Positions 1,773-39,371 of a DNA stretch of 41,729 bases are shown in pieces. Source of the stretch: Basidiobolus heterosporus B8920 (taxonomy: Eukaryota; Basidiobolomycota; Basidiobolomycetes; Basidiobolales; Basidiobolaceae); NCBI GenBank assembly GCA_000697455.1, contig JNET01029041.1, forward strand, positions 1 to 41,729, written 5' to 3'. Under the pieces are notes generated by a model that worked only from the letters and a program-made list of their open reading frames with translations, was not told the origin of the DNA and did no database searches. The stretch's first letter is position 1. Every line of letters starts with the position of its first letter. The position numbers and the translations under genes were made by a program.

Positions 1773-2815
1773 ATACAGTAGTCTATCATTTTGCTTCTAA
1801 GCTACCTGTAACATTGGAATTGACATGTGAATAGCGCATCTTCATTTATAGTATATACATATATATTTAACTATAGTTTTTATCACTCGATTACCCGTGA
1901 TTTCAACTCTTCACACAACACAATAAACGAACTATTGTCGCTCACCAAGCTTGGCCATTTTCTTTGAGGTTATCCTGCATCAACAAAGACTGGCATCTTG
2001 ACATTAGTCTTTGACGGATTTAAGGTGGGTTGTACAGAATTTTCATTGATTTAGAGTTCACTTGTAACTGCAATGCGAAGGCGGCGATTCTATTGTATAT
2101 ATACTACAAAGAACTCTGTAAGTATCCTAGAATCATAATAAATCAAGCAAATATAATCGTTAGAGTCATTATAATATACCTGACTGGATAAAGCCGATTG
2201 TTTGAATTGAATTTTTCTTGGTAAATCAAGTTATTTACTGAAAAGGAACAATAATTATTACTTGCATGCCAAATACTACTTTTGTTTTGCCAGATGTGAT
2301 AGGATTACTTCTAAATAACGCCAATTGCAGTACGTCAAACGTTACATCTCCTTGAGCTGTCACCGTGTTAGATACGACAAGCAGGTGCATCATCACCATT
2401 TCACAATATCCAGCTCAATTTACATTAACCTTGCGTGCGTCATCTATTTGGAAGCAACCTATCTTACAAAGAAGAAATTGGGCGAAATTGAATACGAAAG
2501 ACGTAGTACAACATTTAATGCAATAAAGGTGCTTCGAGATTTTCACCTCAGTCTCAAAGTCAAGAAAAACTTGATTCTCTCCAGAAACGGTTATCTTATT
2601 CTGAGTCAGGTAACTTTGTAGTGATACGATTTTAATTGCTGCAACTTTACTGAATTGTCTAATATATTTTCAGTTAGATCACCCAGCATATTCTACAACA
2701 TATAAAGCATAGTCCCGTACTTCTTTATCTTACAAACTTTAGCGACTGATTTCTTCATCATACTAGTGCAGGTCACTTACAACATCTACTTTCTTTATCG
2801 AAAACTTCTCTAAAC
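1773..2815. other. Intergenic, DAHP synthase to LPMO-like gene
   Basis: Contains the 3' end of the DAHP synthase transcript, with an AATAAA at 1922-1927 about 150 bp after the stop, then AT-rich sequence and the promoter of the next gene. A 98-codon open stretch at 2325-2621 has no ATG start and no recognisable composition; I do not call it. The TATA element for the next gene is at about 2700. Confidence 0.5.
2700..2706 (+). promoter_or_regulatory. TATA box of the LPMO-like gene
   Basis: ACATATAAAGCA lies about 115 bp before the ATG at 2816. The downstream leader is pyrimidine-rich (CTTCTTTATC, CTTTCTTTATCG), as is common before the transcription starts of strongly expressed fungal genes. 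Confidence 0.5.
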
Positions 2816-3634
2816 ATGTGGGGCAAAAAGCTGATCACTCTAGCAATCGTTTCACTTGCATGTGCTGTCAATGTTCAAGGCCATTCTTACTTGACTGGGC
2901 CCGATCCACGTGTCAGACAAGGTCAATGTCGCCTCGATGGCAAAACATTTACCGGTTCAAATCCAAAGCAATGCTACGGACCATGCGAAACTACTGTCGT
3001 AACTCCCTTAAACAAACGTGCCGTATATCAAAGAGGCCAGCAGATCAGTGTCTCTTGGGCACGTAACAATCACCCTGGAGGGTTTGTTCGTATTGCCTTT
3101 GCGAAAACTTCTAAATCCAAGAGTGCTAGCGAATTCGACAAAAACGTTCACAAATATTCTTGCTATGAAGCTGGACCCGGATGTCGTGGTCAAGGCAGTA
3201 AAAACAACAATGACAAGTTAGGTAGCAACACCAAGAATTGTAATACTGCTATCAATATTCCGAAGTGGCTTGATGATGGTGAGTGGACTCTTCAGTGGTC
3301 ATGGTATGGCTCCATGCAAGGCCATGGGGACTTCTATTCTTGCTCAGATATTGTCATCAAGGGCGGACCTAAGGGTAATAGCCAAGGTGCTGCGTTTGAA
3401 GGAGGCGATCCTCGTAATCCTAGCAAGCAAGTTTGCGCTATTGGATGGGGTGACCGTCTGGGAGTTTGTAAATGGAACAGATGCTGGGATTCCAATAACA
3501 AGAACTCTCGTGCACCTTTCGAAAAGAAGGGATGGAACACAAATGTTGTCATCAACACTGTTCCTTATTCAAAAACTCCATTGAAAATGTTACCTGGACG
3601 TAATCCCAATACCAACAAGTCAACACCTTGGTAA
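2816..3634 (+). CDS. Secreted copper lytic polysaccharide monooxygenase-like protein
   Basis: Intronless, 272 residues. Residues 1-22 are a typical signal peptide (KKLITLAIVSLACAVNVQG); predicted cleavage leaves His23 as the mature N-terminus, the hallmark of LPMOs, whose N-terminal His forms half of the copper histidine brace. The second brace His is probably His86 in NNHPGGFVRIAF. An axial aromatic is offered by HGDFYSCSDI (residues 170-179), the usual last strand of the LPMO core. The mature chain has ten cysteines, fitting a disulfide-rich secreted fold. After about residue 190 comes a tail with a Cys/Trp cluster (CAIGW, GVCKWNRCW) that I cannot match to a known carbohydrate-binding module. 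The likely role is oxidative cleavage of chitin or another cell-wall polysaccharide outside the cell. The CAZy AA family is not assignable by eye. The next gene is also a secreted carbohydrate-binding protein on the same strand. Confidence 0.75.
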   Translation: MWGKKLITLAIVSLACAVNVQGHSYLTGPDPRVRQGQCRLDGKTFTGSNPKQCYGPCETTVVTPLNKRAVYQRGQQISVSWARNNHPGGFVRIAFAKTSKSKSASEFDKNVHKYSCYEAGPGCRGQGSKNNNDKLGSNTKNCNTAINIPKWLDDGEWTLQWSWYGSMQGHGDFYSCSDIVIKGGPKGNSQGAAFEGGDPRNPSKQVCAIGWGDRLGVCKWNRCWDSNNKNSRAPFEKKGWNTNVVINTVPYSKTPLKMLPGRNPNTNKSTPW

Positions 3635-5106: not shown

Positions 5107-6384
5107 ATGAGATTGTCCGAAGTCTTGCAATCAGTTGTAGTTTTGGGATTAGCCGCTTCTTCTTTGGGCAACAACACCTGTAAGGTCCCTTCTCCCAAAA
5201 CTCACGTATCCTATCGCGCCTCCGGTCCTATCGTTCTTGATGGCAAACTTGACGACCCAGCCTGGGAGAAAGTCCCTTGGACTGATAACTTCGGCAATAT
5301 TCAGGGGCCTGCTGGTACACCCCCTCCTTCTATGATGAACACTCGTGTGAAGGTAAATTGAAATACCATCTATGAATTCGTAGCTAGTTTCTAAGTGATG
5401 TTTCAGATCATGTTTGATGAAGATTATATCTACGTTGGTGCCCAAATCGATGAAGAAATTATTCGTGCCAAGTCCGACTATTGTGAGGGCAAAAGTAAGG
5501 AATTTCAGTCTATCTAGATATCTTTCATATATACTAAAGTACTCTTAGAATGGGATGATAACGATTTCCAGTTCTATCTCGATGCTGACCGTACCAACAA
5601 AAATCTCAAGGTGATCAAGATGAACGCCTTGGGCCTGTACGAGTCTTTGATCTATGACAAACCCCCTAGTAGCAAGGGTGTTGGCAAGCCTTGGGATATC
5701 AAATCTAAATTTGAGTTCAAAGTATACACAAACGGCAAGGTTAACGACCCAAGATGGACGAAGGTCAAGGGTGGATTTTGGTCAGTTGAATGGAAGCTCC
5801 ACAAGAGCCTCCTATCCAACAAAGCTGTCAGCAAGCGTGATGTCGAAGGAGTTCCAGCATACCAGAACATGAATTTCTTGCGTACTGGTTACAATCCAAC
5901 CTCCGTATATCCTCTTCCTAACCAATCGAATTTCACCAGCACTGCCTCTTTGTTCTTTGGAATTCCAATGGTACCCAACATGCAGAGCATTCAGAAACGC
6001 CATCAGGTTACATCAAGATACCAATTCTCTTGGACCCCCCAATACTCTAATGATCCTACCGATTCTGATCTTTGGGGCCATGTTGAGTTCAAGGATACTA
6101 CTGATACCTCCGTTCCATTTGTTGAGGACCCCAACTACGCTACCCGCTATGCTCTCATCCAAGTCTACTATGCCCAGCAACTCTTTGCTTCCAAGAACAA
6201 TGGCAAGTACGCCAACATTTACTCAAAATTGAATATCGAATCGGACATTATCGGTAGATGCGTTCCTATTCCTAAGATCAAGGTTTCTAACGACTGCCTG
6301 AACTTCGATGCTTTCATCAAGAAGAGCAAGATGGTTGGCACCATTAATGACAGTCGTGAAATCAACTTCAGGGCTCAAGTTTAA
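5107..6384 (+). CDS. Secreted CBM9-like carbohydrate-binding protein
   Basis: Three exons, 5107-5352, 5407-5494 and 5549-6384, giving 389 residues; both introns are 54 nt with GTAA donors. The N-terminus (MRLSEVLQSVVVLGLAASSLG) is a signal peptide. Residues about 35-90 read VLDGKLDDPAWEKVPWTDNF, then IMFDEDYIYVGAQIDEE across the first splice and DNDFQFYLDAD after the second. This order (DGxLDDPAW, D-YLYVG, D-F-F-DPD) is characteristic of the CBM9-like immunoglobulin fold of bacterial xylanases and of related stand-alone fungal proteins. The remainder lacks recognisable catalytic motifs, so a binding or adhesion role at the wall or on plant or fungal polysaccharide is inferred. It lies downstream of and parallel to the LPMO-like gene; the 1.5-kb gap argues for separate promoters. 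Confidence 0.8.
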
Positions 6385-7157
6385 CTTCATTTTTTGAAAA
6401 CCATTTTCCTTCACACTGATCGATCTCAAATGATATGAATCCCTTAATCAGTTTTTGTTTGCCTTAATTATGTATTACATCTTTGTGTCCTTTTTGATAT
6501 GTGGTCTTCATTCCATTACCATCTCATAAATGTATTCCCCAACATGGGGTTACTGCGTAACTCTTATCATTAAAGTTGATTTCAATCACCTACGATATTG
6601 GTGTATGTTGTGACTACAGGCCATGGTCGCCAGTTCTTGACCATACCGACTATATATTGATCTTAATCAATGATCCAGTGTCACAAGGATTTGTTTTACA
6701 TCATATAGATCTTGATCCTTTGGGCTGAGCCTTGTCTGCACATATTGAAGCCGGGTTACTTCTTATATATCCTATTGTAATGCATGAATCAGTTCATGTC
6801 AGACAATACATTACAATATAAGCGCTTACATAATAGTCACTGGTTGAAACAGAAACAATAAGCCATGACTCAGATATCAGTGTGACGTGGTTTGTCAGCA
6901 CGGATTTCCTTTTATAGACAGGAGCATACTAATTAAACTGATTATAAATCGTTAATAATGCATTAGGTAGGTGATACCTGTTTGCAGTATCAGTTTTTTA
7001 GTCCTCCTCCGTTTCATTAACTCACGATATGGATACATTCTAAATAAGGCCAGAATCTATGGTCTACTGCAGTTGATTTATTGCAAAATTTCTTAATCTT
7101 CTTATATTGGATTGCTCACGTTTATTAATTTCAACTTTGTATGCTATCACAAAGATT
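6385..7157. other. Intergenic, CBM9-like to INTS10-like gene
   Basis: About 770 bp, AT-rich, no supported gene. It contains imperfect repeats of TGATCTTAATCAATGATC-like sequence (6650-6720) that may form a weak hairpin but match nothing I recognise. Confidence 0.45.
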
Positions 7158-9906
7158 ATGCCCCTTCTAGAGAACACTTTACTCTACACGTTAGAAACTA
7201 TCAAAAAAGACTTAACCAATGGTGTGATTGAATTAGCTAAACTTAAACTGATTCCACTTGTGGATGCTTATCAGACAGTTTTCGAAGTTCAGGTTTGTTG
7301 TTTATTACTTTGCTGGACAATAGTTGGTTTTTGAAGTTAACATATGAATTTTTAAAGTTACTCTTACTTGAAGTCAGCCTTGCTGAAAGGAATTTTGGGA
7401 AAGCATTACAAGTTTTAACACACCTGTAAGTAATTTCCATTCTACTATAGACTATATATCAAACCACTAAACCTGGCTTTAAGACGAGTGAAGTACAAGT
7501 ACGAAGAAAAGTACAAAGAATTAGTGTGTCGTATTGTTCACTCCGCTTTAATTGGGTCAATCGAGGATTATGCAGGTATTTATTGGTGAAAATTAGTAGT
7601 AGGAGTTAAGTGAGTAGCCCACGTTCTCATACTTCTTTTGTTGGGAATATAGAGTTGTTTCGACTAACGCCTGGTAACCTGCAAAAGGAATTACTTATTG
7701 AAGCAGCAGGTATTACTACTTTGTGAATATATAGAGTTGTATTAAGTTGCTAATATTCTATATTTGAAAGCGCTTCACTCCTCGGCAAAACGTTTGTTTG
7801 ATGCCTCTCGTGTACTTGCATTCCTTTGTTACTTCTTTCCAGAGCTGACGTCTCAATATGGGGTACGCTAGTCAAATATGCATGTTTAGTCGAGTTCCTT
7901 TTTGACACTTTATGCTTTATCTCAGCCAGTTGCTGCTGACTGGGTGATTAGGGTGGAGAAAGAGAGTAATCTCTCAGTACCAGTAAACACTTATCGTCGT
8001 TTCTTCCGTAAGAACTTTTATAAGACTCCCTACCCAAAATTTTTATACTAATTCTTGTCTAGTAAACGGAATCTTACCTCAGATCTTTGCAAACAAAGTG
8101 AACTGTAGAGATCCAGAAGCCAAAGGGTTTAATTTAAACCACACCAACCAAAATACTATACCGTATGAGCTTTTGGTGGAATGGATGAAGCTTCATCAAG
8201 AGTACTATATCGCTCAAATTGAATGGAAAACGATGTATCAATCTATGGTGCATATTTTCAAGCAATGCGAATTTCTTCCTGAAGAATGGTAATTGTGCTT
8301 ATTCAGCAAACTAATCCACGTTGAATTGAAAGCTAAATGTTGGCAACATTTGTATTTTACAGTCAAATATCTTCCGTAGAGCCAGACCAGCATTCAAATC
8401 TCCTTTTTCCCGATACTCTCTTGGAGGCCGTTAACCTTAACAGATACAACTTGCCGAGCCATTTTAAATCCCTTTTCTTGACAACCTGTTTTGCCCAAAT
8501 ATGTTTTGAATACCAATCGTTGATTTTTAATCCGAGCAAACTCCAAGGTAAACCGAGTTTTCTCAATGAATACACTCAATCCCATCTAACCCCTGCCTTA
8601 GAATGCTCAATACCAGTCGGTGACTATAAACTGGACAAAGTCGGCAAAAAAGTGAAAAAAGCCAAAATCAGCAAATCCACAAAGAGCAAACAGAAACCCA
8701 AGGCCATGGCTATAGGCAATGCGGTTGATACGTCTGCTTCGATGTCTTCACCTGATGGTAAATAAGCCAATATCTTTTGCAATTTATTATAGAAGTCTCA
8801 ATTCTAAGTAACCTTGTATAAATAGATTGCATGAAAGTTACCGCACAAACCACAATTACTTTACGTAAAGCCCAGGAGCTCCTTAGTTCAATAGAAGGCA
8901 TAGATGGTGGCTGGATTCTGAAACAGATGGTTAATGACTGGTCTCTACCATTTCATATAGTAAACGGAATTCTTCTTTGCCAAGCAGATATTCGTTTGAT
9001 GGAGGTAAATATGAACCAACACCTTTCAAGTATAATACCTCATTTATCAAAAACATGTTTTGTAGAAGCGATATTCGGACTCGCATAATCTTTACTGTAT
9101 GTTATCAAATAGGTGTCAAGCTAGGTGGCAAAAGAAGAACGAAATTGTGGACGGAACCTCGGTCATATTTCATCCCCTGTATCATTCTCGACTACTCTAT
9201 TCACTTAGCATAACCAGTGACCACATGGGACAACGTAAGGTTCGAGCAAGCCAGGGTTCTTTTGAAAGTTTGATTGAGAACTTACTTGTTTTCTTAGATT
9301 GCTCGAAAATATCTTTTCCCAATTATATATTCAGGAATACCCTGTGAATTTAGCGATCTATGCCTTGATATAGAAAAGTCATCAAAGTTTCGACTTCGGC
9401 CTGCATCCGTATTCGAATTGTTGAGTCGTAGTATACAACATCTAATAACGTTATATGTAAATGACATCGAGCAAAATGGATACGATCACGATTTAGTAGG
9501 AGATTTTTTGGTTTTATTGCAGTTTGCGGAAGCGCAGCTGCCAGAACGACTTCAGTGGATTTCTGGTCTACTCATCCAAAATGGTTCTTTCATTTATCGA
9601 GAATTTTTCCACTTCGTATTTTCTGAGGCGATACTACAACAAATCTTTCAAGTCAGAAATCTCAATGATCTGTTTATATCCCTCTTGCCAGTGAAAAACG
9701 ACGATTCCTCTCCGAATCGATCAGAAGTATCTCAAGTCGAACAAAACCGTACTCTCGAAGCCCACCTACAGCTTGCGCTTGAGAAGACACCCAAAAAAAT
9801 GTTACTGCTACGGGAATTCTGCAAAAGGACTTACCTCCGGGATCAAGGAATACCAGTTCAAAAGTGGCAGCGTAATATACATGCAGTCATGGAATTCTGG
9901 AACTAG
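7158..9906 (+). CDS. Integrator complex subunit 10 (INTS10)-like protein
   Basis: Eleven exons: 7158-7292, 7358-7425, 7451-7575, 7653-7709, 7771-7862, 7926-8007, 8063-8288, 8363-8757, 8826-9004, 9066-9239, 9298-9906. All phases join to 713 residues; human INTS10 is about 710. Recalled INTS10 motifs appear in the same order. LFRLTPGNLQKELLIEA (residues about 111-127) corresponds to LFETLPGRVQCEMLLKV. YFFPELTSQYG corresponds to RRFPETVVQHG. VNTYRRFFLNGILPQIFANK (about 180-199) corresponds to VNCFRKLFVCDVLPLIINN. A basic linker (KVGKKVKKAKISKSTKSKQK) precedes a helical half. FVFSEAILQQIFQVR and LQLALEKTPKKMLLLREFC match the human C-terminus. In animals INTS10 belongs to the INTS10-13-14 arm of Integrator, which binds nucleic acid in RNA polymerase II termination and snRNA 3' processing. 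The extreme N-terminus matches less well. The match is inference from memory, not a search. The exon 10 donor is unusual (GTTCGA). Confidence 0.68.
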
Positions 9907-12203: not shown

Positions 12204-15200
12204 ATGATACAATCTCCTTGTATTCACGTCCCCAGTAAGCGGACAGAAGAGGTCGATTGGGCTACTCCTTTGAAAAAGTATATTGCTAGTAATTATCAAG
12301 ATGACCCAGAAAAATATTTGGAGGAGGTCAATACCATCAATAGACTTCGTCAAGATATGCGTGGTGCTGGGAAAGATACTACGGGAAGGGATTTGCTCTA
12401 TCGGTACTATGGACAATTGGAGCTGCTTGATTTACGCTTTCCTGTTGATGAAAACAACATTAAAATTTCCTTCACTTGGTAATATACCTCTTGAAACTTG
12501 GCGGCTTTTCTCTGTCTGACATGTTTGTTTAATTGTTTAGGTGTGATACATTTACTGGAAAAACCACTTCTCAATTTTCTTTAGCGTACGAAAAGGCTTG
12601 TACCATATTCAACATGGCTTCGACCTTGTCCGCAATTGCTTCTTCTCAAGTTCGCTCGGAGCCCGAGGGATTGAAGCGCGCTTTCAATTACTTTCAAGCT
12701 TCTGCTGGAATGTTTACTTACATAAATGAAAACTTCCTTCATGCCCCTTCTACTGATCTTAGTAGAGATATCGTTAAAATATTATCTCAACTCATGCTAT
12801 CTCAGGCTCAAGAATGTTTCCTCGAAAAAAGTCTTGGCGAGAAAAAGAAGGATGCTCTTATAGCAAAGTTAGCAAGTCAGGCTTCTTGGTCTTATGGATC
12901 AGTTGTTGATGCAATGAATGAAGGTGTCGCTAAAACTGCTCTTAGTCGTTGGTGGCATATGGTTTGTCAGGTAAGGCAATCTCTATGGAGTATATCTAGT
13001 CGAACCTGCTTTAATAACTTGTCAATCAACATCCGGCTAGGCCAAACAAAAGCACTATCAAGCTGTTGCTCAGTATCACAAAGCACTGGCATGTGAAGCT
13101 GAAAACAAGTATGGTGAAGTTGTTGCTCGCCTCACTTTCGCTGAAACCAATGCCAAGGAAGCCACTAAGTTGGTCAACACATTTGCAAGTGGATTTACAC
13201 CTTCTTTAACCTCCATCCCCCCAGATGCTGCAACAGCTCTTCAAGATATCACCAAATCTTCTCAGACCATCATTTCAGAGAAGTTGGTGTCGGCTACTAA
13301 AGATAACGACCTGGTTTATCATGATACTGTCCCTAATGTAGATGTGTTGCAACCTATCGACAAACTCAATGCTGTCAAACCCATCCCAATCTCCGAACTT
13401 TACGGTCCTAATGAAATACAAAAAGTTATTGGTGTTGATATTTTCCAAAGACTGATCCCTCTATCCGTTCACGAATCTTCATCTCTTTATTCAGAGGAAA
13501 AGGCAAAAATCATTCGTAAAGAGACAGAGAGAGTAGATCTTGCCGACGGAGAGCTTGATGCGGCCTTTTCTTTCATGCAACTTCCCCAGTCTATCGAAAA
13601 GTTCAAGAATAGAAATTCAGCAGGTGAGAAGTCTATCTCCTCTCTTGCTCGCAGCACTCCGGAGGTAAAAGAGTGGGCCAGGATGATCAGTCAAGAAGAA
13701 AACGAGAGAGGAATGGTCGGCGATTTAATTGTGACACTTGAAGGACTTCGAGGTAAAGCTAAGGAGTTGATCGACGGTGTTAGTATTTCCTTGGAGCAAG
13801 AACAGCGTGATTGTGAAGCTATGAGGGTAAGTTATATGCCATTGACGCACCTGTTAACAATCATTTAATCCTTCCACTTCACAGGTCAAATTTGGAGATC
13901 TCTGGACTCAAGTACCCTCTGGTACACTTACGGCTAGCTTCCGTCAAGATATCCGAACTCATCGCGAGGCTCTTGATAAAGCCATTGCTTCTGATAGGTC
14001 TTTGATCTCCAGATTCGAAGAAATACATACTTCCATTGAAGTACTTCGTGAAGGAGAGCATAGTGACAGACTAGAACAAATGTTTGCTGAAGCAGTTGCC
14101 AGTGCTGCAGGATCCGGTAGTAATTCTGCTAATGAAAGCACTTTATTAGATACCGATATGGAGGATGGAATCGAGTCTAACATAGCAAACATTGAAAAGA
14201 GTATTGAAAAGTTGAACAAGATCAAGAAGGAAAGACAAGAGACTCTTGACGACTTGAAGAATAAGGTTCGTACCTTCTGCTATGTTAATTCATAACTTTG
14301 ACCACCTTCTAACATTTATTGGTCTACAGATACAGGAAGATGATATTTCCCACTTGTTGATTTTAAATAAGAAATCTCCAAATATCGAGTCTCAGCTATT
14401 CGCCACTGAACTCGAAAAATTCAAGGGACATCAGAATCGTATTACCGCAGCTATTCACCACCAACAAGCAATTATTCAAGAGCTTTCCGGCTATTTCAAG
14501 GCTCTGATGGAAGGGGCTGAGGCTAAACGTGTTCAACGAGTTTGGGATAATGCTGAAGCTAGAAGGGACGAAGTGACCAACAAACTTCGCATTGCATCCA
14601 ACGACTACCTAGATATTAAGAATGGCGTTAGGTATTGTACATTTCTGAGATATATGTTGACCGTCTAGATCAAATCTAACATAGCATATTTGTTTACAGA
14701 AAAGGTGTCCAGTTCTACGCGGATTTGAATGATGTTTTAGCTGATCTTAATACCAATGCTAGGAGATTAGTTCACGACCGTGAGCAAGAGAGGCAATCCT
14801 TGGTTCAATCGATTGAAGGGAATAAAGTTGAACGAGAACATCAAGCACTAAAAGAGCAACTGGAGAAATATCAGGATGTTCCTCTGGATCGAGGTCAACG
14901 CCATTTTGAAAATCCTCCAATGAACCCTGCCTTTGCCAATCCTGCAGAAGCAAATATCTATGCAGATATGGCCATCAAGAAACTCACTGAACAGGCTAAT
15001 CGTCTTCATATTAACAATGAAAGTGGGCAGCTTCCTTATGCCCCTCCGGGTGCTCCATCAGGATTTAATCTCCCACCTCCCGCACATGCCCCTCCCGCTC
15101 CTAATCAAGGACCAGCAAGATACAACCAGCCCGACTACACCAATAGCCCGGTTTTCTCGCCTCCTCCACCTAACGCTCAGGGTTCCGTTTGTAAAACACC

Positions 15201-16941
15201 CTCTTATGGATCAGATAAAGCGCAGAGTCCCTACTATCCACCACCCCAGAACGCACAAGTGCCTATGGCAAGAACTCCGTCTTATGGATCGGAGGCTGAT
15301 CATCTTAACCCGTACTTCCCACCTGCTGGAAATCAACCACCTCCACCAATGAATGCCCCTCATGGTGCAGCTGTTCAACCAAGCATGATTCCTGGAGGTT
15401 ACCAACCTGCACAGTCACCCTATGTCAACCAAGATCCTCAATTTAGAGCTCCAAGACAACCTGCTCCTCAACATCCACATGCCAATATTCATTCACCTGA
15501 TGTTGCCGAGCCTAGACAGTTATCACCAGTAATGGACCGTAATACTCAAGCTCCAATCGGCGGATACCAAGGACAATACGGCTATGGCCAGCCTCCATAT
15601 CAACAGCAACAACAGCATCAACATCAACCGCCTATCCATACCTCGCAGCCTCAGAACTACTCTAGCCCAGTTGGATATGGGTACTCACAACAACAGACAC
15701 CAGTTCCTGAAAATGTCGCCAGTCCTCAAGCAAATACCGCTGGATGGCAACCTCAGCAGCAGTACCAGAAAAATCTACCACAACGTCCTGAGTACAATCC
15801 TGGCCCTGCACAGCCAGTTCAACAACAACAGCAGCAATACCCTAACCAGAACCCTCAACTCAATCAATATCCTGGTTATGGCGGAACCTCACCCATCCCA
15901 GGCCAAGGACAACAGGGAATACAGAGACAGCCATCCAATTATGATCTACAGTTGAAACAATCTCCTCTACAAGGACAGCAAATGGGTCCAAATGGCCAGC
16001 CCCCTCGTAATCAACCTCCCCCACAACCTCAATATCAAGGCTTTGATCAAGTAGGCCAAAGACCTGATCCCCAACAATATTATAACCCACGTAATCAACA
16101 ACCACAATATAATCCCGCATTGCAGCAACAACCTCCTCAACAACCGCAACAACATCCTCGTCCAAACATGTATCATGAGGGAAGTCAAAATTCGCAATCC
16201 CAATACCCTTATGGTAACGGGCCAAATGCTCAAGTTATTTCTTCACCTTATCAACCATCTAATCCAGCTACGCTATCTGGCGGCTCTGATAACTCTTATG
16301 TGTCCACATCACAAGCTCCACCTCAACAAGGCTATCAATCGCAGCCACAGCAAGCACCATATCAACAATATCATGGTCAGCCACCAAACCAGCAACCGGG
16401 TCAAGACCCAAGACTGAGAGAAGCTACAGTTGGACAACAACCATATCAATACCAAGGAGGATCGGGTGGGCCAATGGGACAGCATCCCCCTCAACATCAG
16501 CAACCACCACTCCAACAAGAGCATAACTATCCAGGTTATCAGCAAAGACTTCCGCAAAATTATGAGGTGCCATCTCAACAATATCAACCATCAAATCCTC
16601 AACAACAATTCCAAGCTCCACCTGGACCACATGGATACCAATTGCAACAAGGCTATAACCCACCTCCACCTCAAGGCGCAAGTGGTTACGTGAATCCATC
16701 GCCTCAAGGATGGCAGCAAGGAGCACCGCAACAGCAACCTATGGGTAATCAATATCAACCCCCAGCTGTGATCCAGGGTCAGCAACCTCCAGCTCCGCAA
16801 CAGCAGCAGCAACAACAACAATACCAGCAGCAGCAGCAACAGCAACAGCAACCTGGACAATGGAATGGTTATCCTCAACAACAAGCACCACCTCCAGGGA
16901 ATTTCTACGGAGGACAGGGAGGCGGATCTCTCTTGGACTAA
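12204..16941 (+). CDS. BRO1-domain ESCRT-associated protein with very long Pro/Gln-rich tail
   Basis: Six exons: 12204-12478, 12541-12970, 13041-13826, 13885-14265, 14330-14631, 14700-16941; about 1471 residues. Residues about 5-390 are a BRO1 domain: SPCIHVPSKRTEEVDWATPL, YYGQLELLDLRFP, WCDTFTG, YEKACTIFNMASTLSAIA, FNYFQASAGMFTYI, LMLSQAQECFLEKS and HYQAVAQYHKALACE. The next 400 residues are charged and helical, as expected for the V-shaped ALIX/Bro1 middle domain. From about residue 800 the chain is almost entirely Pro, Gln, Tyr, Asn and Gly, ending in polyGln blocks (16797-16853) and GGSLLD. BRO1 domains bind ESCRT-III (Snf7/CHMP4); V domains bind YPxL ligands and, in yeast Bro1, ubiquitin and Doa4. 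The proline-rich tail favours Bro1/ALIX over Rim20/PalA, which has only a short tail, but the distinction is not proven. Intron 4 has the unusual donor GTTCGT. Confidence 0.92.
16797..16853 (+). repeat. CAG/CAA microsatellite encoding polyglutamine in Bro1
   Basis: Imperfect run of CAG and CAA codons coding two Gln blocks split by a Tyr, near the C-terminus of the Bro1 gene. Mixed CAG/CAA usage should reduce slippage, but length variation between strains is still expected. Confidence 0.9.
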
Positions 16942-34557: not shown

Positions 34558-36882
34558 ATTGAATTCGTAACTCAGTCAACTACTAAGCAGTCACATCGAT
34601 TACCACATTCAAAATTACTACGTACCTACTACACTGGCGGTAATCAAAAACTCAAAGAATGGGTGTCAAAACATGAGAAACTCCTAAAACCGTCCAAGGT
34701 TCATTGGGTTGATGGATCTGAAAAGGAATATAAGCAGTTGGTTGATTCGCTGGTTCAGCGTGGTGTTATGATACCATTAAACCCTTCTAAACGGCCAAAC
34801 TCATACTTGACACGCACAGACCCAGCAGACGTTGCTAGAGCAGAAAGCTCCACATTCATTTGCTCCAAGAACTCAGAAGATGCAGGGTATGTGCAGAAGT
34901 CCAATGCTCTGTTCTCATCGAGCTTGTCATTTACTTTCTCTCATTTACTTTAGTCCTACCAATAACTGGGTGGACCCAGGGGAAATGCGCGCACAATTGG
35001 CAAAAAACTTCGATGGTTGTATGGAAGGTAAGAAGTAATTCGACTCGTCTGATCTTGCGCAAATACTCACAAATTTCATGCCTATCTCACAATTATAAAG
35101 GACGCACAATGTATGTGATCCCATTCAGCATGGGCCCTATCGGCTCTCCTCTAGCAAGAATAGGTGTTCAGCTCACGGACTCACCTTTCGTAGTTACTAA
35201 CATGCGCATAATGACCCGAATGGGAAGTAAAGTACTGGAACAACTCGGCGATAAAGGGGAATTTATCCCGTGCGTGCACTCTGTTGGATGCCCACTTCCA
35301 AATGGTAAAGAGGATTCTCTTTGGCCATGTAATATACCAGAACGTAAAGTAGTGCACTTTCCGGAAACAAGAGAGATCTGGAGTTTTGGTTCAGGGTATT
35401 GATGGATTTCATGTCACTCATCCTGAACTGGTGTACTCACACAAATTTAGATATGGTGGCAATTCTCTTCTAGGCAAAAAGTGTCTTGCCCTGCGTATCG
35501 CCTCAGTGATGTCAAGAGATGAAGGCACATTGGCAGAGCACATGCTAATTTTAGGATTGACTAGTCCTGAGGGAAAAAAGCACTATGTTGCAGCTGCGTT
35601 TCCAAGGTAATATTTCAAAGAAATTTATGCAGTTCACCGACCCAAAGTTAACGAGCATCTGGTATTTAGTGCCTGTGGAAAAACAAATTTAGCAATGATG
35701 GAACCAGCCTTGCCTGGGTGGAAAATAGAAACCATTGGCGATGATATTGCCTGGATGAGAATCAATGAAAAGGACTCTCGTTTATACGCAATTAACCCCG
35801 AAGCAGGATTTTTTGGAGTAGCTCCAGGCACTTCCAACTCAACTAACCCAAATGCTATGGAAACTATTCGCAGTGATACTATATTCACCAACGTAGCATT
35901 AACTGAAGACGGTGATGTCTGGTGGGAGGGTATGAGTAAACAACCTCCTGCTGGAAAAATCGTAGATTGGCGTGGGGTGGAATGGGAGAGAAGTGAATCG
36001 GAGCCAGTACGCAAAGAACCATTGGCTCATTCGAATTCCCGCTTTACTGCGGCCATATCCAATTGTCCTGTGAAAGACCCACGTTGGGAAGACCCTAACG
36101 GAGTACCTATCTCTGCTATAATATTCGGAGGAAGACGTGAGCACACCATTCCTCTGGTATTCCAAGCTTTGAACTGGAATCATGGTGTTTTACTTGGAGC
36201 CTCTGTGGCAAGCGAAAAAACGGCAGCTGCTGAAGGTACTGATATTGGAGTAGTCAGACATGATCCATTCGCAATGCTACCTTTCTGCGGTTACAATATG
36301 GGCGATTACTTCAAGTAAGTAAGAAAGGCCTGCAACAAGAGTGATAAATCACAGTTAACATATGTTCTACTTTCTCTTAAGACACTGGATTTCCTTAGGT
36401 CAGTCCGCTCCAGATCCATCGAAACTCCCAGCGATCTTCCACGTAAATTGGTTCCGTAAAGGGGCTGATGGGAAGTTCCTTTGGCCAGGATTTGGGGATA
36501 ATTCACGGTAATCTAGGGTGGATTTGATGTTGAATACAGAAAGCGATTGCTTACTCTAATTTAATCTAGCGTTTTGAAGTGGATAGTGGAACGCATTGAA
36601 CACCCAGAAGCTGATGCTCAACCGACACCCATTGGCTATCTACCAAAGCCAGACTCTCTAGATCTTTCTGGAATTGAAAAGGAGGCGACTCCAGAGGTGA
36701 TGTCGGAGCTCCTCAACGTCAATCGAGAATCTTTCGTGAATCAAGTGCGTGAGAATCGAAAATACTTCTCGGTCTTTGGTGAGCATTTCCCAAATGAATT
36801 GAAAGATGAGCTAGACCAAATGGAAGCTCGACTGAAAACAGAACATAGTGTTGAGAGTACTGGTAAAGAAGCGGTAGTTTAG
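34558..36882 (+). CDS. Phosphoenolpyruvate carboxykinase, GTP type (5' end unresolved)
   Basis: Converts oxaloacetate plus GTP to phosphoenolpyruvate, the entry step of gluconeogenesis. Exons: (about 34558)-34886, 34954-35027, 35101-35395, 35451-35606, 35670-36314, 36382-36507, 36570-36882. GTP-class signatures are clear: [58 protein letters not shown], the kinase-1 loop [13 protein letters not shown] (split by an intron), [45 protein letters not shown] and [10 protein letters not shown]. The ATP-class loop GxSGTGKTT is absent. Dikarya normally have only the ATP enzyme. The open frame starts after a TGA at 34555 and has no ATG before conserved residues ([17 protein letters not shown]); the first in-frame ATG, at 34768, would cut into the conserved N-lobe. 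A small upstream coding exon is therefore expected. The catalytic part looks intact. Confidence 0.92.
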
Positions 36883-37488: not shown

Positions 37489-39371
37489 TTAGTGAGCAGA
37501 AGCAGCAATATTTTCCGCTGCTGGTCTTCTCTTTGGTGGGATCTCCTGAAGAAATACCAGGGCAATCACAGCAAGTACACCAAATGGTATTACCGACACA
37601 AAACTCTTGTCCAGTGCATTTACATAGGCACTAATCACTCCCTCACGAATTGCTGGATCAAGTTTCTGAATGGTATCAACAGAGAGCGCGGCTGATTCGG
37701 ACTAAACACGGTCGTGTGGTTAATAGTATGCTCTACAATCTAAATCCTAATTTTCACATACCGAGGTAGAGGGCAACACCTGCCCAATGTTTTTACTAAG
37801 AAAGTTGGTGAGTACTGCCCCTTGGATTGCTACACCAAATACTCCCCCAATGGTCCTCAGGAATGTCACCAAGGATGTGGTGGATGCGTTGTCTACAAAA
37901 GCATCATTGAGATATTATCCTTTGAGTCTATACCCTAATACTCCTGTACCTTGAACGGTAACCGCTGCCTGTGCTGCTAGTAATAAAGTTTGAATCTCGA
38001 AGCCGAAACCTGCTCCAATTAAAATCAAGTAGAGAATCAGCAATCCACGGCTAGTCCCTTCATTCACCGTGGATGATAATCCCAGACCAACAGTCAGTAA
38101 GACTGCCCCAGGGAGTGCAAACACTCGATACCATCCACGAGAGGATGACAAAGGCCCTGAAATCAAGGATGTAACTGTTACACTGAGCATGAATGGAAGG
38201 AGTTGAAGTCCAGCTCCAGTAGCTGTATATCCTTTCACCACTTGGAAGTATATGGGGAAGTAGTACTGTGCACCAAACACACTTGCGCCTACCATGAAGA
38301 ATCCAACACTAGAAACAAGTACGTTGCGAACTTTGAAAAGATGTGGGGCAATTAGAGGCTCTTTTGCGACCTTCAATTCAACATATATAAAGGCAGCTAA
38401 TAGTACAAATCCAACACAATAAACTGATATGACCACTGGGGAAGACCAGGCATACTCATTACCACCCCAGTTGGTAGCCAACAGAATGCAAATCACTGAG
38501 CTTAGAAGGGTGACAATTCCCCAGTAGTCAACTTTGGCCAGTTTTTCACGTAAAGAGCCCTTGGGAGCAGGCATCTTCAACATAAAGATGACGACGAATA
38601 GAGTAATTGCACCAACTGGCATATTGATATAGAAAGCCCAACGCCAGCTAACATGATCTGAGAATATACCTCCTAATAGGGGGCCTAGTACTCCTGATAA
38701 AGCGAATACCGCACCAATTGCACCAAGATACTTTCCTCGTTTGTGTAGTGGAACAATATCTATGGTGTAGAACTGAGTTAGAGACGTAAACCGTTTTACG
38801 GACACCCATGTCTGAATACATACCCGAGATGATGATAACTACCAAACACAAAATCCCTCCACCCCCGATTCCAGACACCGCTCGGAACACAATCAGCATA
38901 GTCATGTTCTGAGATACGCCACACATAATGGAGCCACCCAAAAAGGTGAACAGAGCAAAGAGAATGGTCAATTTACGCCCAAAAATATCCGAGAATTTCC
39001 CATACAGGGGCTGGAATGATGTGAAAGTAAGTAGATACGACGTCGCTACCCACGATACTTGGTTCAATGCATTGAATTCTGACGAGATGGCCGGTAGAGC
39101 TGTAGCAACAATCGTTTGATCCAACGATGCAAGAAATACAGCAAGCATAAGACTAGTAGAATCTATAGTTAGTAGAGAAAATTGTTTGCGCTTGGTGTGA
39201 TACAAGTTCTTACCCTATAAATATAACAATTCGTTGCCGGGTAGAATAGTTCAGCTCTTGTTCCGCCTTCTCCTCCACTCCCAATACAATTTGTGTATCG
39301 TGTTTGTCCGTAACCGAAGCCTGGTTGACTGGAGAGCAATCGAAATCTTCTTTCTCTTTAGTGCTATCCAT
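37489..39371 (-). CDS. Major facilitator transporter, DHA2 (14-TM drug:H+ antiporter) family
   Basis: Five exons on the minus strand: 39371-39214, 39152-38824, 38759-37950, 37892-37762, 37701-37489; 546 residues. The ATG at 39371 opens a hydrophilic N-terminus (MDSTKEKEDFDCSPVN), then RQRIVIFIGLMLAVFLASLD and QTIVATALPAISSEF, the TM1 signature of DHA2 proteins. Motif A follows as GKFSDIFGRKLTI, and antiporter motif C as ALSGVLGPLLGG, with SWRWAFYINMPVGAI immediately after. Length and hydrophobic segments fit 14 membrane spans. Relatives export drugs, toxins or dyes, or carry basic amino acids at the vacuole; substrate cannot be read from the sequence. Splicing restores the complete frame, so the gene looks functional. 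Exon 2 starts at TACTAG|TCTTATG; an earlier TATAG would be out of frame. Confidence 0.93.

Follow-up and report, generated by a model that had tools for sequence, protein, structure and literature searches.

Results

Gene content of the window

The window, that is, the whole stretch of 41,729 nucleotides analysed here (Basidiobolus heterosporus B8920, contig JNET01029041.1), contains at 7158–9906 on the forward strand an intron-containing gene, the product of which resembles subunit 10 of the Integrator complex (INTS10). Other genes lie around it. Two ORFs at 34839–36318 (+) match a GTP-dependent PEP carboxykinase in its N-terminal and P-loop domains (PEPCK_N, E = 6.3e-46; PEPCK_GTP, E = 2e-103). 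Because fungi usually carry the ATP-dependent enzyme, this may represent an unusual retention or a transfer. On the reverse strand, 37915–39214 holds ORFs of an MFS-type transporter, the first of which (37915–38838) shows similarity to MFS_1 as well as to the TRI12 efflux pump family (E = 3.1e-12), and the second of which spans 38648–39214. A 294-residue ORF at 2750–3634 (+), with a secretion-like start and the motif HSYLTGP, looks by eye like a lytic polysaccharide monooxygenase and has no Pfam match at E ≤ 0.001. At 13041–16941 (+), a BRO1-domain ORF precedes one of 753 residues that is rich in Gln, Pro and Tyr and matches no Pfam family, and the two together are perhaps one ALIX/Bro1-type gene.

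The assembly that holds the window (8.1 Mb, 428 contigs) contributed four members to the sequence set, namely the window gene (C68) and the copies C259, C354 and C93, the last two of which are spliced in part only. Five database proteins complete it: P0001 and P0003 of Basidiobolus ranarum, both named 'Integrator complex subunit 10' at the source; P0002 of B. meristosporus (K493DRAFT_340225), flagged partial and named only 'hypothetical protein'; P0004 of B. ranarum (K7432_002976); and P0005 of B. meristosporus (K493DRAFT_373578).

Structure of the INTS10-like gene

The best model of the gene has 12 exons and 11 introns and encodes 684 residues without an internal stop. All introns are GT-AG and 54–77 nt long. 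Translation would start at ATG 7158, with an in-frame stop upstream at 7074, and end at the stop codon 9904–9906.

The start region in exon 1 (7158–7292), with start codon 7158, matches that of B. ranarum P0001. Exons 2 (7358–7425, 68 bp), 3 (7484–7575, 92 bp), 4 (7653–7709, 57 bp) and 5 (7771–7862, 92 bp) are each identical in length in all four copies. The acceptor of exon 3 was moved from 7450/7451 to 7483/7484, and the new position is supported by the length of 92 bp found in every copy. Exon 5 encodes FFPELTSQYG, corresponding to human RRFPETVVQHG, and exon 6 (7926–8007) encodes VPVNTYRRFF, corresponding to human SPVNCFRKLF; the latter exon is 82 bp long in three of the four copies and 67 bp in C93. 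Exon 7 (8063–8288) was placed by spliced alignment. Exon 8 (8363–8547) is 185 bp long here and in C259, and is followed by the likely intron 8 (8548–8601), which is 54 nt long, in frame and open. Exon 9 (8602–8757), a Lys/Ser-rich linker, was again placed by spliced alignment, exon 10 (8826–9004) by both the hand model and spliced alignment, and exon 11 (9066–9239) ends at a donor, GTTCGA, picked by homology to P0001–P0003. Exon 12 (9298–9906) includes the stop codon and encodes NGSFIYREFFHFVF, corresponding to human QGNFQYENFFNYV.

The introns were recovered by a spliced-alignment script supplied with no intron information and with profiles lacking the window protein. The same 11 introns were obtained each time, whether with P0001 (score 2276), with P0001 and P0003 together (2100) or with the distant P0004 (631). 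When a profile of six family members was run on 13 controls, namely three fetched loci read on the wrong strand and five other stretches of the window read on both, the scores were 24–34. Script and hand model had also agreed in an earlier run, for which the profile contained the hand model, so that the two were not independent.

Ten of the script's introns are those of a 702-residue hand model, and the eleventh is 8548–8601. That hand model, which kept 8548–8601 as coding, was overturned by the profiles without the window protein; a still earlier model of 699 residues had two introns wrong (7426–7450 and 9235–9334). Sequence comparison makes 8548–8601 very likely an intron, because its 18 residues are missing in P0001 and P0002 and the preceding 185-bp exon matches that of C259. 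P0003 as annotated has an insert at this position.

A sequence-only reading of the window had proposed a hand-spliced gene at this locus with a product of 713 residues. The gene and the locus stand, as the 12-exon model was recovered from B. ranarum proteins alone; the product needs two corrections, which bring it to 684 residues. The difference of 18 + 11 residues would be explained if intron 8548–8601 had been retained and the acceptor of intron 2 set at 7450, not 7483.

Likeness to INTS10

In a Pfam scan, the 684-residue protein matched a single family, INT10 (PF21045), at E = 5.6e-6. Its score of 25.3 bits is nevertheless just below the cut-off of 26 bits, an annotation threshold rather than a biological feature, which none of the nine members scanned reached. 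The scores of the others were 23.8 for C259, 21.4 for P0003, 18.3 for P0001, 17.2 for P0004, 14.5 for C354 and 13.7 for P0002; P0005 and C93 singly gave no INT10 match at E ≤ 0.1.

When the single protein was searched against 177,635 distinct PDB sequences, human INTS10 (8rbx_j) was found at 6.6e-6, and the next entry at 0.22. With a profile of eight fungal members, human INTS10 was matched over two segments, residues 22–189 and 365–637, with E = 1.4e-17, the sole other entry up to E = 10 being a cytochrome oxidase subunit at 0.014. Each of the two better-known clades described below also found INTS10 separately: a four-row profile of the window clade at 2.6e-8 with no other entry up to E = 10, and a four-row profile of the C259 clade plus C354 at 1.7e-10 with the next entry at 0.24. 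An hhalign comparison with a hand-entered sequence of human INTS10 had a probability of 97.9 and aligned columns 23–613 with 22–654, collinearly over 559 columns at 20% identity. The single-protein searches used the final 684-residue model; the eight-member and window-clade profiles and the hhalign comparison contained the window protein in its 702-residue version.

Human INTS10 (8rbx chain j, PF21045) is thus collinear with the fungal protein over 22–654 of its 710 residues, similar to it in length, and marked by the same ordered motifs towards both ends (fungus/human: LTPG/TLPG, FPELTSQYG/FPETVVQHG, PVNTYRRFF/PVNCFRKLF and GSFIYREFFHFVF/GNFQYENFFNYV). On the other hand, identity is only about 20%, the fungal single sequence falls just under the Pfam cut-off, and the fungal family is multi-copy. 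The motif series listed by the sequence-only reading recurs in the alignments, in order, except for a C-terminal REFC segment that lies beyond the aligned part. Its central claim, a fungal homologue of INTS10, agrees with the profile searches, in which Pfam INT10 and PDB INTS10 were the only significant matches. Judged from these comparisons, the likeness to INTS10 is beyond chance, and the window protein is almost certainly homologous to INTS10.

An old family of paralogues

Relatives of the window protein were sought among about 5.8 billion proteins with its earlier 699-residue model, and only Basidiobolus proteins were returned, of which two belong to B. ranarum (61 and 54%) and the third, at 58%, to B. 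meristosporus; the search scores 8000 candidates that share 5-residue words, and it missed animal INTS10 too. An early-diverging fungal host, as previously assumed, fits these nearest relatives, and Basidiobolus is placed in a phylum of its own, Basidiobolomycota (NCBI taxonomy). Over aligned residues, P0001, P0003 and P0002 are 65, 57 and 69% identical to the window protein. P0001 and P0003 are 59% identical to each other and are encoded on separate contigs of unequal size. The same database search with C259 returned proteins of B. ranarum at 61% and of B. meristosporus at 38%, and its relatives P0004 and P0005 are 67 and 46% identical to it. P0004 likewise carries the INTS10 name in UniRef. 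A fungal INTS10 entry is therefore nothing new to the databases, which have it for B. ranarum; the family of paralogues, with its common gene structure, is undescribed as far as our literature searches reach.

When the assembly was searched with P0001, matches were obtained in the window gene and in portions of three others (C259, C354 and C93); P0004 as query led to these four contigs and none besides. The four copies are 21–31% identical in pairs. Eight introns nevertheless coincide in alignment column and in phase across the four copies, and any two copies have 8–12 introns in common, compared with a mean below 0.1 and a maximum of 2 under random placing, a control that ignores splice-site sequence and concerns copies whose splicing was guided by family profiles. 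Intron 8, although of phase 1 in all four copies, falls in gappy columns (390–410) and was left out of this count.

A tree of the family supports the window clade (C68, P0001, P0002 and P0003) at 100/100. C259, P0004 and P0005 form a second clade with 100/99 support, which C354 joins on a long branch, again with 100/99. C93 forms a long branch, and its placement is unsure. This tree was built from refined gene models, and an earlier one was nearly identical; earlier alignments used first-round models of C259, C354 and C93. The clade of P0004 and P0005 is 24–29% identical to the window clade, and is separate and old. Because B. ranarum and B. meristosporus as well as this assembly are represented in both clades, the duplication that generated them predates the split of these lineages.

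The picture of a single surviving subunit gene, which the sequence-only reading implied, is therefore too simple: at least four copies are present in the assembly, and the B. ranarum records hold at least three, on three contigs of unequal size, if these originate from a single isolate. By the sequence evidence, INTS10 in Basidiobolus is an old multi-copy family, some diverged copies of which may have changed function.

A mixture of organisms is not supported as the source of C68 and C259, since both have Basidiobolus relatives at like identity (65 and 67% to B. ranarum); it may still account for C354 and C93. Searches of the assembly for the actin family and for the proteasome each hit three contigs and gave no sign of mixture.

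C259 (locus L010) lies next to a gene for a UBR-box/ClpS protein, C354 (L011) next to one for ribose-phosphate pyrophosphokinase, and C93 (L009) next to one for a mitochondrial carrier. Also adjoining C93, an ORF at 5996–6922 of L009 matches DUF4487 (E = 1.6e-9), which we take to be the family of human C1orf112/FIRRM, and has no PDB match.

Other Integrator subunits in an incomplete assembly

Hand-entered human INTS11, INTS9 and INTS14 queries, run without a positive control, found no match in the incomplete assembly, and Pfam family searches for INTS3 and INTS13 found none in a mode that missed INTS10 itself. The INTS11 query did not find CPSF73 either, a protein expected in eukaryotes. A family search for the PROCN domain of Prp8 was also blank, as was a search for U2 snRNA run without a positive control. 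Eukaryotes have 14 proteasome subunit genes of the kind sought; the assembly yielded only three such loci, a count from which short exons may be missed. The assembly is clearly incomplete. Protein-type searches of it worked with P0001 and P0004, and the family-type search for INT10 was empty, so that family-type blanks carry no weight. Because of this and the incompleteness, the blank subunit searches are not decisive.

Discussion

Integrator is described as metazoan-restricted in one paper (PMC9006982), and another states that Schizosaccharomyces pombe is without NELF and Integrator (PMC12624956). In the mainly open-access literature searched, we found no paper on fungal Integrator, be it in Basidiobolus, early-diverging fungi or chytrids. 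The partners and the role of human INTS10 are known from two studies: its C-terminal region binds the vWA domain of INTS14 and its first helices bind INTS15 (PMC11062913), and it increases the RNA affinity of its module about twofold (PMC7347597).

Since conservation in the fungal proteins includes stretches towards both ends, the simplest inference is the same scaffold role. Like human INTS10, the window protein would be an alpha-helical scaffold in the tail module of Integrator, anchored through its N-terminus to INTS15 and through its C-terminus to the vWA domain of INTS14. It would position the INTS13–INTS14 'sting' and the cleavage module on early-paused RNA polymerase II, leading to cleavage of the nascent RNA and release of the polymerase. 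We give a probability of roughly 0.7 to this reading, in which the protein is a true INTS10 homologue that most likely acts like human INTS10. Action inside an Integrator-type complex is probable; the fold, the partners and a complete, active Integrator in the fungus are inferred. A working Integrator with attenuation or snRNA 3' processing, which the sequence-only reading implied, may exist in the fungus. Several points speak against our reading: none of the five other subunits sought was found in the assembly, no member scanned attains the Pfam cut-off, identity to the human protein is about 20%, and the presence of several diverged copies hints at changed functions for some of them.

The first of these points would be expected if INTS10 survived in this lineage after the remaining subunits had been lost, and a duplicated helical scaffold was repurposed for another complex. 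The four diverged copies in the assembly, at 21–31% identity, and the three in the B. ranarum records fit such a course as well. The blank searches are weak evidence, however, given the incomplete assembly, and in both better-known clades two segments can still be recognised as INTS10, which points to constraint at the known binding ends. We therefore regard repurposing as rather unlikely, though as the most serious competitor.

Far less probable is that the protein is an unrelated TPR-like helical protein whose INTS10 match results from chance or composition. It is true that TPR_6 appears at E ≤ 0.1 in three of eight members, that no member reaches the INT10 cut-off, and that in C354 one TPR family scores 14.7 bits against 14.5 for INT10 and in P0004 TPR_6 ties with it. 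Yet INT10 has the best E-value in every member that matches both. The PDB contains many TPR proteins, but INTS10 was the sole strong match there, in two collinear stretches, and TPR chains up to E = 10 numbered zero.

Animal contamination or recent transfer from an animal is the least probable explanation of all, for although Basidiobolus is an amphibian gut symbiont with many transferred genes, mostly bacterial, according to PMC7466969, the sole database relatives found are from Basidiobolus (54–61%), human identity is about 20%, and the introns are 54–77 nt long at positions common to the four copies.

As for the paralogues, they may serve as alternative scaffolds of the tail or may no longer belong to Integrator. 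A doubtful extension is that Basidiobolus kept Integrator and diversified its tail, with old INTS10 paralogues, conserved between species, forming alternative tail modules that direct Integrator-type termination to different transcripts; the literature consulted describes such modules for no organism.

The INTS10 family of Basidiobolus suggests that yeasts lack Integrator because it was lost within Fungi, and not because its absence is the primitive state. It makes Basidiobolus a culturable fungus in which the role of Integrator before animals can be asked about, and its old paralogues raise the question of whether several versions of the tail module exist within one organism.
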